From a virus: a stretch of 64,000 bases of DNA. Shown here one piece after another: positions 3,073 to 51,491 of the stretch (position 1 is the first letter of the stretch; every line of letters begins with the position of its first letter). The stretch is taken from IMG/VR virus record IMGVR_UViG_3300050821_009835, positions 186,001-250,000 of that record. One strand, given 5' to 3'. The position numbers and the translations under genes were made by a program. The notes beneath the pieces are model-generated. The model was not told the DNA's origin, made no database searches, and saw only the letters and a program-made list of their open reading frames with translations.

Positions 3073-3669
3073 ATGGCAGAGACAGTGCAGTCGCAAGTTA
3101 AGGAAGAAACACCAAAGTCTGTTGATGAAATCATATTTAACCTGAAAAATTTTGGCATTGAGGATTCAGAAGAAATCCTTACCCTGAAAGCAGGCGGTCA
3201 AGAACATCACATCCGTATATCCAACATCCCGACTGAGGGCGAGTTGATGTCTATTATGGCCTGTGAGGATGTTAAAGGCTATGCATGGCTCCAGCGCGTT
3301 AAGGCAGAAGTGCTCTCGCGTGCTATTTCGTATATAGATGGAGTTTCAGTTAAAACTCTTGAAAACAAGATGTTTACTGATCCGACAACTAAAAATCAAA
3401 TGCTTTGGCAGCCAGCTCTTCGAAACGTCATCTTGACTTGGGGCATGGAGATCATGAATGTGCTCTGGAAGGTTTTCATGGTTCACAGTCAGCGTATTGA
3501 AGATCGTTTAAAAGATGCATTTCCAGATTCCGCATTGATGACAGACGTTGAGAAGCGATTTGTAGAACTCGCTGTTCAGGATATCGAAGATCAAACTCGA
3601 GATATGATCAAAGATCGTCTCAGCACGATGGTGGAAGAAAACGCAGAAGAAAGTGCTCCCAAGGTTTAA
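3073..3669 (+). CDS. tail-operon protein upstream of tape measure
   Basis: 198 residues. Start chosen at ATG 3073 because AAGGAG sits six bases before it; an upstream in-frame ATG at 3037 lacks such a site. Opens MAETVQSQVKEETPKSVDEI and is rich in helices. It stops three bases before the tape-measure start, the usual position of a tail tube-associated or assembly protein. No motif identifies it. Confidence 0.65.
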   Translation: MAETVQSQVKEETPKSVDEIIFNLKNFGIEDSEEILTLKAGGQEHHIRISNIPTEGELMSIMACEDVKGYAWLQRVKAEVLSRAISYIDGVSVKTLENKMFTDPTTKNQMLWQPALRNVILTWGMEIMNVLWKVFMVHSQRIEDRLKDAFPDSALMTDVEKRFVELAVQDIEDQTRDMIKDRLSTMVEENAEESAPKV

Positions 3670-25584: not shown

Positions 25585-25888
25585 GGAGTTTGCCAACAAA
25601 TATTTAAATAAATTCTGGATAGAATCTAGCACGGCGGTCTTCACTCGTGAGGAAATCGATGTGCTCAACCGCACTGGACATATCACGGGGGATACAGCGC
25701 AACTTCTTTTGGAACTTTGTTATGATCCTGTACGAGATCTTCATGACTACGCTTGCATCTTCCATAACCGCCATGAGTCTATCCCCTATAATGGAGAACA
25801 GTTGATGGGACTGAAACGTCTTGCTGCCACCCTCATGACTCGGGACGAGCCAAACGGGCTTCGCCAAAATAAATGGATGAAAGGGTAA
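25568..25888 (+). CDS. hypothetical protein
   Basis: 106 residues, helical, basic at the end (NKWMKG). Overlaps the preceding gene by 17 bases. It is the last protein gene before the structured RNA segment. No motif recognised. Confidence 0.6.
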   Translation: MSLASEEFANKYLNKFWIESSTAVFTREEIDVLNRTGHITGDTAQLLLELCYDPVRDLHDYACIFHNRHESIPYNGEQLMGLKRLAATLMTRDEPNGLRQNKWMKG

Positions 25889-25909
25889 ATCTTCCCGCTA
25901 CGGAGTATT

Positions 25910-25915
25910 TATACT
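25910..25915 (+). promoter_or_regulatory. -10 box for the structured RNA
   Basis: TATACT, one base from the bacterial consensus, ends six bases before the expected RNA 5' end near 25921. No good -35 box is seen 16-18 bases upstream, so a phage or activator-dependent promoter is possible. Confidence 0.45.
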
Positions 25916-25916
25916 A

Positions 25917-26232
25917 GAGACGGTTTGGCTGAACAACACGCAGCCAGCGTGTAAAGCACGGGTCGTGCCGCTGAAAAGCGAAGAAAGTGCGATCTGGTGA
26001 TACAGTCAATGCCGCGTAAGGCTGAACACCACTGGATTGTACAATCTAGATGGGCGTAAGAACCGGACAAATCGACATACTCGATGATGGCTGTATCCGG
26101 TTGGGAGGCACCAATCCTTCCCTAGCTGCCGCAAGGCGACTCGTATGGCTGATCCCCTTCGAGGCTAGTGGCCGAATAACGCGACACTGGTTAAGGTTTT
26201 GGGGTAATCATTAGTCCCCACGCCGTCTTTTT
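25917..26232 (+). ncRNA. structured RNA of unknown class (~310 nt)
   Basis: No protein gene fits here, but helices are dense. A closing helix pairs GAGACGG (25917-25923) with CCGTCTT (26223-26229). Inside: ACACGC/GCGTGT (25936-25952), whose AGCC loop can pair with GGCT at 25927, a pseudoknot; GCACG/CGTGC (25956-25968); CGCT-GAAA-AGCG (25969-25980); CTGGATT/AATCTAG (26032-26049); AACCGGA/TCCGGTT (26061-26102) enclosing ATCGA/TCGAT (26071-26085); CTAGC/GCTAG (26122-26168) enclosing GCC-GCAA-GGC (26128-26137); GGGG/CCCC (26201-26219), then TTTTT. It matches no tmRNA, RNase P or intron core that I know. Role unknown. Confidence 0.7.
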
Positions 26233-26242
26233 CATTATTGCC

Positions 26243-26290
26243 ACGGCCTCTGACCCTTGTTATAAAGGGACCTCCTCAGAGGCCGTTTTT
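26243..26290 (+). terminator. strong terminator with branched loop
   Basis: A perfect 11-bp stem ACGGCCTCTGA/TCAGAGGCCGT (26243-26253 with 26276-26286) is followed by TTTT and TATAG. Its loop holds a second hairpin CCCTT/AAGGG (26254-26269), leaving ACCTCC (26270-26275) unpaired, identical to the anti-Shine-Dalgarno core. Whether this 3' part belongs to the upstream RNA or stands alone is not clear. Confidence 0.8.
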
Positions 26291-26333: not shown

Positions 26334-26552
26334 ATGACAGGCGAACGTCTATCTAAAACCCAAGAACTCATCGAGCTAATTTTGGCAGATCTATATAAAC
26401 GAGAAATCCTCTCAACGGTAACTCATATCCCAACGATTCTTCTGTATTCCCCAGATCAACTGCGGAAGATGTTAAACAAACACTTATCCGGGCGTTGTTT
26501 ATCTCAGAATAAAGAAACCTCTTCCGAGATAAGACTTCTCGGGAGAAAGTAA
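26334..26552 (+). CDS. small hypothetical protein
   Basis: 72 residues, basic, helical (ELIELILADLYKREIL). No clear ribosome-binding site. A GTAGAAT element (26315-26321) just upstream may be a promoter. Lies between the RNA segment and the Clp-type ATPase. Unknown. Confidence 0.45.
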   Translation: MTGERLSKTQELIELILADLYKREILSTVTHIPTILLYSPDQLRKMLNKHLSGRCLSQNKETSSEIRLLGRK

Positions 26553-50652: not shown

Positions 50653-50775
50653 ATGGAAACAAATTGGCATGAATGGACGAGTTGTGAATTTTACGGTCAT
50701 GTTTTCCAGACCGATGAAGAAACTGGCCGCACTCATTGCACAGACTGCGGTGAAAAAACCGAAGACCACGAGTAG
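50653..50775 (+). CDS. small zinc-binding-like protein
   Basis: 40 residues with GGAGG five bases before ATG 50653. CEFYGHVF and HCTDCGEKTEDH supply a C/H set for one zinc. The stop codon lies inside the tRNA gene that starts at 50766, so message and tRNA overlap by ten bases. Confidence 0.5.
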   Translation: METNWHEWTSCEFYGHVFQTDEETGRTHCTDCGEKTEDHE

Positions 50776-50842
50776 CTCAGTTGGTAGCAGCAATTGGCCG
50801 ATAACCGATAGGTCGCAGGTTCGATCCCTGCCTCGTGGACCA
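50766..50842 (+). tRNA. tRNA-Ile(GAU)
   Basis: 77 nt. Acceptor CCACGAG/CTCGTGG, D-arm with a C-C mismatch, anticodon stem ATTGG/CCGAT with loop CCGATAA (GAT at 50800-50802), five-base variable loop, T-arm GCAGG/CCTGC, encoded CCA. Base 33 is C instead of the near-universal U, so the anticodon assignment is slightly uncertain. Confidence 0.8.
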
Positions 50843-50863
50843 AAATTTTAATGGAGGCCAAAT

Positions 50864-50920
50864 ATGGCTGAAGAAAAGGAACAGCACGAGGAGTATCCGA
50901 TGAACGGGCCTTGTTGCTAG
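50864..50920 (+). CDS. possible 18-residue peptide between tRNAs
   Basis: ATG 50864 has GGAGG seven bases before it and encodes a charged peptide ending NGPCC. Only the ribosome-binding site supports it. Confidence 0.3.
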   Translation: MAEEKEQHEEYPMNGPCC

Positions 50921-50929
50921 AGGAATTTT

Positions 50930-51011
50930 GCTAGGATGGCTCAGCGGCGACAGCAGCAGTTTCGTACACTGCCATACAAACACAGGGGTTCGAGTCCCCT
51001 TCCTAGCTCCA
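50930..51011 (+). tRNA. tRNA-Thr(CGU), enlarged variable loop
   Basis: 82 nt. Acceptor GCTAGGA/TCCTAGC, D-stem with the same C-C mismatch as the preceding tRNA, anticodon stem GCAGT/ACTGC with loop TTCGTAC (CGT at 50963-50965), T-arm AGGGG/CCCCT, encoded CCA. The variable region is 11 nt (CATACAAACAC) rather than the usual 4-5. Confidence 0.75.
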
Positions 51012-51016
51012 AGTTT

Positions 51017-51089
51017 GCAGATGTAACACAATTGGCAGTGTACTTCCTTGGTAAGGAAGAGGTTGTGGGTTCGACTCCCATCGTCTGCT
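51017..51089 (+). tRNA. tRNA-Thr(GGU)
   Basis: 73 nt, fully canonical: acceptor GCAGATG/CGTCTGC, D-stem ACAC/GTGT, anticodon stem CTTCC/GGAAG with loop TTGGTAA (GGT at 51050-51052), five-base variable loop, T-arm GTGGG/CCCAT. CCA is not encoded. Confidence 0.9.
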
Positions 51090-51127
51090 CTTTCGTGACT
51101 TTCTTTAAGAAAGGTTCATGACGAATT

Positions 51128-51307
51128 ATGAATAACGGGTGCCCATGTAGCAGCTGTCATCCATACGGTGCAGCTTATTGTTGGTGTTTTCTCCACAGAC
51201 TAGAGCACCCGTTAGTAGAGAAGATTATCAATGCGGAGAGCTGGCGTGAAACCAGCCAATTGATGAATGAACTTTACACGACGTATTTGAGTCGTTTAGG
51301 AAGATAA
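51128..51307 (+). CDS. small Cys-rich protein inside tRNA cluster
   Basis: 59 residues from ATG 51128. The start is Cys-rich (GCPCSSCHPYGAAYCWCF), the rest helical (ESWRETSQLMNELYTTYL). It lies between two tRNA genes and ends five bases before the next. Function unknown; zinc binding plausible. Confidence 0.5.
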   Translation: MNNGCPCSSCHPYGAAYCWCFLHRLEHPLVEKIINAESWRETSQLMNELYTTYLSRLGR

Positions 51308-51311
51308 GTTT

Positions 51312-51397
51312 GCTGGTATCGCATAGTGGCCGATTGCAGCAGTTTTGTAAACTGCCGGAGAAATCCCACGGGGGTCCAAATCCCTCTGCCAGCTCCA
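51312..51397 (+). tRNA. tRNA-Thr(UGU), long variable arm
   Basis: 86 nt. Acceptor GCTGGTA/TGCCAGC, anticodon stem GCAGT/ACTGC (same as tRNA-Thr(CGU)) with loop TTTGTAA (TGT at 51346-51348), 14-nt variable region that can form GGA/TCC, T-arm GGGGG/CCCTC with loop TCCAAAT, encoded CCA. Thr tRNAs normally have short variable loops. Confidence 0.75.
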
Positions 51398-51404
51398 AAA
51401 TTTT

Positions 51405-51491
51405 AGGGCGGTCGGGTAATGGCATCCCACCTGACTTTGAATCAGACGAGCCTTCGGCTCATTGTAGGTTCGAATCCTACCCGCCCTGCCA
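51405..51491 (+). tRNA. tRNA-Gln(UUG), hairpin in variable region
   Basis: 87 nt. Acceptor AGGGCGG/CCGCCCT, short D-arm GGG/CCC, anticodon stem CTGA/TCAG with loop CTTTGAA (TTG at 51437-51439), T-arm GTAGG/CCTAC with TTCGAAT, encoded CCA. The 17-nt variable region (51447-51463) forms a stable GAGCC/GGCTC hairpin, not expected for Gln. Confidence 0.8.

Follow-up and report, generated by a model that had tools for sequence, protein, structure and literature searches.

Does the stretch between two open reading frames (ORFs) of a ~265-kb phage genome, one ending at 25888 and the other starting at 26334, contain a structured RNA and, if so, of what kind? The window, i.e. the whole stretch of 64,000 nucleotides analysed, corresponds to bases 186001-250000 of a 264.9-kb viral record. 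A sequence-only reading had described this locus as free of protein genes and occupied by a large, pseudoknotted RNA of no recognised class. The program-made list holds no ORF of at least 60 aa between the two flanking frames, in agreement with the first of these statements; downstream, a small ORF is followed by a ClpB-like AAA+ gene.

Homologues and compensatory changes

Taken alone, the window sequence has an only modestly unusual folding energy (z -2.07), and the case for an RNA rests therefore on homologues, being comparative rather than thermodynamic. When the RNA was compared with phages by BLAST, the sole match was a 67-nt stretch of LR756501, a 735-kb phage that is the largest known, and of its twin record LR756503. 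A compensatory change (CCGG/CCGG to CCAG/CUGG) is already found within these 67 bases. Patterns built on this match led to further IMG/VR loci and, in the genome collection, to three matches, all on contigs of uncultured, metagenome-assembled bacterial bins. Many matches of the first pattern were chance matches in coding sequence, and were removed by eye. Relatives were needed as bridge queries: by using them, BLAST reached LR756501/LR756503 and all of the 15 Lak phage records. All together, pattern, BLAST and covariance searches identified 27 further contig loci, some of them near-identical, in addition to the 15 Lak megaphage records and the 735-kb phage, while a search of plasmids, with one relative as query, gave no match.

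Searched with R1, a covariance model of the core, 20 whole records each gave a single match (E between 1e-34 and 4e-23), and the copy of the window is the only one in its 264.9-kb record (Table 1). The window phage has a portal protein and a DNA polymerase in common with G018 and with the acidobacterium phage Tunturi_5; the RNA has no significant match in either relative, the weak match of Tunturi_5 (E 0.21) being devoid of the fold, and G018 having none at all. The portal is also common to G005, a carrier of the RNA, where, unlike in the window, RNA and portal gene are not close to each other.

For the analysis of the fold, 24 sequences were aligned (alignment A2), the window being 48-58% identical to the others, and 72 base pairs were counted. 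Unsupervised ranking of covariation on A2 recovered the nested helices as well as the pseudoknot. Pairing holds in 93.0% of 1705 cells (72 pairs, 24 sequences), and compensatory double changes are found for 58 pairs, corresponding to 413 doubly changed cells. None out of 500 shuffles reached any of these measures, and sliding the partners by 1-3 columns left 35-43% of cells paired; since pairs were counted on the very alignment used to refine the structure, shuffles and slides serve as controls and do not amount to an independent test. There are 155 G-U cells vs 31 A-C cells, and pair 26023/26170 is U-G in all 24 sequences, which argues for a structure formed in RNA of this strand, not in DNA.

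Twelve helices and the pseudoknot, PK1, are backed by compensatory changes in homologues, and both the internal helices and the large pseudoknotted RNA that had been proposed are so confirmed. The features are collected in Table 1.

Table 1. Features of the RNA and of its immediate surroundings (positions refer to the window).
Feature	Position	Strand	Evidence
TATACT, -10-like box	25910..25915	+	sequence; no -35 partner
Whole RNA, P1 to P1' (~310 nt)	25917..26229	+	24-sequence alignment A2, 72 pairs counted; core model R1, 91.8 bits, E 3.8e-23
P1, 5' strand	25917..25925	+	pairs with 26221-26229; 8/8 counted pairs changed on both sides
Module 1: P2, internal loop GAACAA (25931-25936)/UAA (25952-25954), P3 hairpin (25937-25951)	25926..25958	+	UAA in 24/24, GAAYAA in most; P2 and P3 covary
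PK1, 5' strand GCCA, P3 loop	25943..25946	+	pairs with UGGC 26088-26091
P4 hairpin, GAAA cap (25973-25976)	25968..25981	+	GNRA tetraloop in 23/24 (GAAA 22, GUAA 1)
Module 2: P5 and P5b 5' strands, UAA (26017-26019)	26014..26024	+	P5b 100% paired
P6b/P6 hairpin, apical loop GUAC (26039-26042)	26028..26054	+	loop self-complementary in 24/24, counting G-U
Invariant unpaired CGUAAG	26055..26060	+	24/24
P7 (26061-26069/26092-26102) and P8 hairpin (26071-26085)	26061..26102	+	P7 99% paired, 4 doubly changed pairs
PK1, 3' strand UGGC, P7/P8 internal loop	26088..26091	+	paired in 95/96 cells
P9 hairpin	26103..26120	+	94.9% paired, 4/5 pairs covary
P10 helix, enclosing optional P10a (26128-26137, GCAA loop) and P11	26121..26168	+	P10 93.8% paired
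P11 hairpin, loop hexamer UGAUCC (26150-26155), palindromic core GAUC	26142..26162	+	hexamer a perfect palindrome in 17/24
Module 2: P5b and P5 3' strands, GAAUAA (26174-26179)	26169..26182	+	pairing counts and motif conservation in A2
P12 hairpin, loop UAAUCAUUAGU	26200..26220	+	100% paired, 5/5 pairs covary
P1, 3' strand	26221..26229	+	same covariation of P1; runs into U5 tract 26228-26232 (sequence)
Terminator-type hairpin with U run, outside the conserved RNA	26243..26286	+	-26.6 kcal/mol, z -5.1

The closing helix noticed from the sequence alone is present, and corresponds to P1. The predicted pseudoknot corresponds to PK1, whose pairs covary in all four positions through the variants GCCA/UGGC, GAAG/CUUC, GACA/UGUC, GAUG/CAUC, AGCA/UGCU and GCCG/CGGC; judged from the aligned sequences, PK1 is a real pseudoknot. 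The perfect helix AACCGGA/TCCGGTT (26061-26067/26096-26102) is part of P7, which in Lak phages lacks one entire base pair, on both sides. The two GNRA hairpins are P4 and P10a; the latter is found in six sequences, with GCAA, GAAA or GUAA as loop. The internal loop made of GAAYAA opposite UAA is present twice, once per orientation, and recalls the UAA/GAN motif, which is taken only as a lead.

Two elements of the earlier description were partly retained. The -10 box is there, but a promoter scan at this site found no -35 and no promoter, so that the hexamer alone does not support a promoter in the window. Two terminator-like hairpins had been described within the same stretch; the second, ACGGCCTCTGA/TCAGAGGCCGT, is indeed of the intrinsic-terminator type, with a U run, but forms a separate hairpin, 3' of the RNA proper.

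A partial copy of the 3' end of the RNA, 75 bp long and 83% identical, is located 8.6 kb before the start of the window (G000:C1:177389-177463; L002 1501-1575). It reaches from P12 through P1' into the terminator, of which it has the 5' half, and overlaps the C-terminal end of an apparent ribonucleotide reductase ORF, on the opposite strand. The stem of P12 still pairs in the copy, through a compensatory change (GGGG/CCCC to GUCCG/CGGAC).

Relation to the manA RNA

At the RNA, no family of Rfam 15 reaches its gathering score, whether the window or any of nine homologous loci is searched. As the sequence-only reading had anticipated, tmRNA, RNase P RNA, 6S RNA and group I/II introns have no match in the window (Rfam models, and ARAGORN for tmRNA). 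The assignment to no recognised class holds at this threshold, but is incomplete, as the terminal modules are shared with RF01745, the manA RNA. Among sub-threshold Rfam matches, collected at permissive E-values, manA alone recurs, the rest being chance matches. In 7 out of 9 carrier genomes, the RNA is where RF01745 has its best whole-genome match (E 1.9e-5 to 0.8); since about 0.1% of a genome of this kind is taken up by the RNA, this agreement in position is in itself strong evidence for a link. The scores, 9.6 bits in the window and 24.6 in the best carrier genome, stay far below the RF01745 threshold of 55.2 bits, the manA of P-SSM2, used as positive control, scoring 181.6.

The two RNAs have several blocks in common. 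A GUGACUGAAUAA / UAAGGUG module with a hairpin is found inside P1 in both, and reads UUUGGCUGAACAA / UAAAGCAC in the window; the hairpin that follows the internal-loop module is often GNRA-capped. The manA hairpin CUUGU-GGUA-CAG-AAUCC-ACC, just 5' of P1', is matched by a hairpin of the same type, GGUA..CAG.AAUCC or, more generally, CUUGUGGGUA..CAG.AAUCCCACC-like, directly before P1'; its loop is UAGUCAGGAAU in 13 of the 24 sequences, and UAAUCAUUAGU in the window. In both, the closing helix P1 is directly followed by the 3' end, and both are phage-borne, with a promoter of their own, and sometimes lie beside tRNAs. In contrast, manA, known from cyanophages and marine metagenomes, is ~190 nt long vs ~310 nt, and lacks the second copy of the GAAYAA/UAA module and the P5-P11 domain, with its P6 and palindromic P11 loops. 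Conversely, manA carries a 5' hairpin and a middle domain, GAGAC..GUCUC, both of which are missing from alignment A2, and it probably makes a separate loop-loop contact. The P8 loop and the 3' hairpin loop of manA look complementary, and covary.

A reciprocal search, with a model (R2) of the two ends of the RNA, did not find manA in P-SSM2, so that the link rests on the forward search and on the shared blocks; covariation of PK1 was not seen in the manA alignment. Because of these results and of the scores below threshold, the RNA is called a distant relative of manA, rather than a member of the family. We infer, with moderate confidence, that the two share a common descent, the RNA being a distant, enlarged relative of the cyanophage one.

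The manA RNA was listed in 2010 as a riboswitch candidate, located in 5' UTRs (PMC2864571). Among 102 manA loci with enough upstream sequence (L104, L122 onwards), 100 show a promoter with 10-12 of 12 consensus bases directly upstream, vs the usual 7 of 12 in control windows; in 10 loci a tRNA gene is found at most 1.5 kb away. A standalone RNA fits these promoters better than the riboswitch label, and the link recasts manA as a probable trans-acting RNA. It also ties together phages of Bacteroidales, of cyanobacteria and, probably, of Acidobacteriota.

Self-complementary loops

The loop of P11 is usually nine bases long, and its positions 3-8 form a six-base palindrome in 17 of the 24 sequences (UAGCUA, UGAUCA, UAAUUA or UCAUGA); no palindrome is found at offsets 1-4. 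Out of ten different hexamers, four are perfect palindromes (binomial 1e-5; p 0.008 by shuffling within columns). The loci L035 and L076 do not fit this pattern, and the hexamer of the window keeps only its core as a palindrome. The P6 loop, GGCC, GUAC (as in the window), GCGC, GGUC or GGCU, is self-complementary in every sequence, if G-U pairs are counted. As bases within one short hairpin loop cannot pair with each other, palindromes kept through change point strongly to pairing between two copies, and a kissing-loop homodimer through P11 is predicted from the sequences.

In the dimerisation initiation site of HIV-1, a nine-base hairpin loop is made of two bases, a six-base palindrome and one base. 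The likeness of P11 to this site is limited to the geometry of the loop, and implies no relationship; a difference is that the flanking bases of P11 could pair in some sequences, leaving a seven-base loop. OLE is also a structured RNA and forms a homodimer (PMC12286853), whereas for the phage RNA the dimer is a prediction; OLE is bacterial, larger and protein-bound, and has no Rfam match in the phage RNA. GOLLD and ROOL are large structured RNAs, found in phages and prophages near tRNA islands; both assemble into homo-oligomers, and in ROOL kissing loops have been described (PMC12286853). They are ~600-800 nt long and form cages, whereas the RNA analysed here is ~310 nt long and only predicted to dimerise. 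Neither GOLLD (RF02032) nor ROOL (RF03087) has a gathering-score match in the window, and neither was found in any of 14 carrier records, in a search performed without a positive control.

Possibly, although this is a doubtful proposal, the RNA may join GOLLD and ROOL as a third class of self-assembling RNA encoded by phages, one whose two self-complementary loops would produce closed or chained assemblies during infection, the "manA riboswitch" being a small cyanophage cousin and not a riboswitch.

Genomic context and possible role

The RNA is found among same-strand tRNA genes in Lak phages, L006, L030, L044 and other loci, often with tRNA-Met as neighbour. No tRNA gene is adjacent to it in the window, L003 and L076 loci, and none lies within 24 kb in the window. 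Five tRNA genes, for Ile (GAT), Thr (CGT, GGT, TGT) and Gln (TTG), are located at 50766-51491, 24 kb away. In L038, a 195-kb contig, ARAGORN reports a tRNA-Pyl, possibly a suppressor tRNA, within the same array, 924 nt downstream of the RNA. Sigma-70 promoters are directly upstream of the RNA in some relatives, as TTGACA-N17-TATAAT in L006 and TTGACA-N17-TATATT in L044, L047 and L064. No conserved neighbouring protein gene was found, as no family recurs beyond a few closely related loci.

In the explanation regarded as fairly probable, large phages carry one copy per genome of a structured RNA that stands alone and acts in trans, forms dimers, is distantly related to manA, and is perhaps used as a scaffold in the takeover of translation. 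The RNA, which is presumably expressed, would fold into a scaffold closed by P1, with two GAAYAA/UAA internal loops, one long-range pseudoknot and the conserved 3' hairpin. Two copies would join via the P11 loop, and perhaps via that of P6, to give a homodimer or a larger assembly. Its presumed biochemical function would most likely be that of an abundant scaffold, binding for example ribosomes, tRNAs or a ribosomal protein. This role is proposed because the RNA is so often embedded in phage tRNA arrays; analogy with the context of GOLLD and ROOL (PMC12286853) hints weakly at the same role.

Chance hairpins, or a DNA element made of terminators or of a recombination site, could be invoked on the basis of the 75-bp partial copy, but this explanation is practically negligible, being refuted by the compensatory changes and by covariation in which G-U pairs are tolerated. 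Regulation of the downstream gene in cis, by a riboswitch or a leader, would agree with the listing of manA as a riboswitch candidate of 5' UTRs (PMC2864571), and with the small ORF and ClpB-like gene that follow in the window. It is rendered very unlikely by the lack of a protein family recurring beside the RNA beyond few closely related loci, by the frequent location between tRNA genes, by P1 running into a U tract, with a terminator-type hairpin following in the window, and by the start of manA RNAs right behind a near-consensus sigma-70 promoter in nearly all the loci analysed.

The location inside tRNA arrays is also what would be expected of a ribozyme, or of a processing RNA for these arrays, whether similar to RNase P or left over from a self-splicing intron, and the compact pseudoknotted fold is in line with it, as are the GNRA loops and the invariant unpaired segments, CGUAAG among them. 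Yet several carriers, the window included, have no tRNA nearby, and no RNase P, group I/II intron or ribozyme of Rfam matches the window, or likewise its relatives, even at E up to 10; such a role is quite unlikely. A decoy or anti-defence RNA, titrating a host factor such as a nuclease, a CRISPR effector or a regulator, is unlikely as well, although single copy and patchy distribution, with no significant match in the window-phage relatives Tunturi_5 and G018, would suit it. No defence gene recurs beside the RNA, in a comparison of neighbours run without a defence-library scan, and the fold is kept in detail from Lak to the window phage, a cultured relative of which has an acidobacterium as host; a fixed molecular function would fit this better than a host-specific decoy.

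Much non-coding sequence of huge phages remains unread, and the RNA, present in all 15 Lak records and in the largest known phage, is part of it. It is not mentioned in the text of the Lak study or of the huge-phage survey, and no description was found in the literature searched, most subscription journals and preprints lying outside the search.

Other elements were noticed around the RNA in relatives. A boxA-like sequence, GTTCTTTGA/GCTCTTTAA, was considered as a general upstream site and discarded, being found in six loci, mostly of one clade, and absent from the window. In L021 and L040, stretches resembling further closed RNAs lie ~170-330 nt upstream of the RNA core, each after AAGTTCTTTGA, which is boxA-like, as in rRNA operons. 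Downstream of the RNA, the clade of the 735-kb phage (L003 ~3255-3450, L021, L040) has another probable structured RNA, with conserved CCUAUCUUGUAAC...GAUAAGAC...GGUAGGG and a closing helix, followed by a strong terminator.
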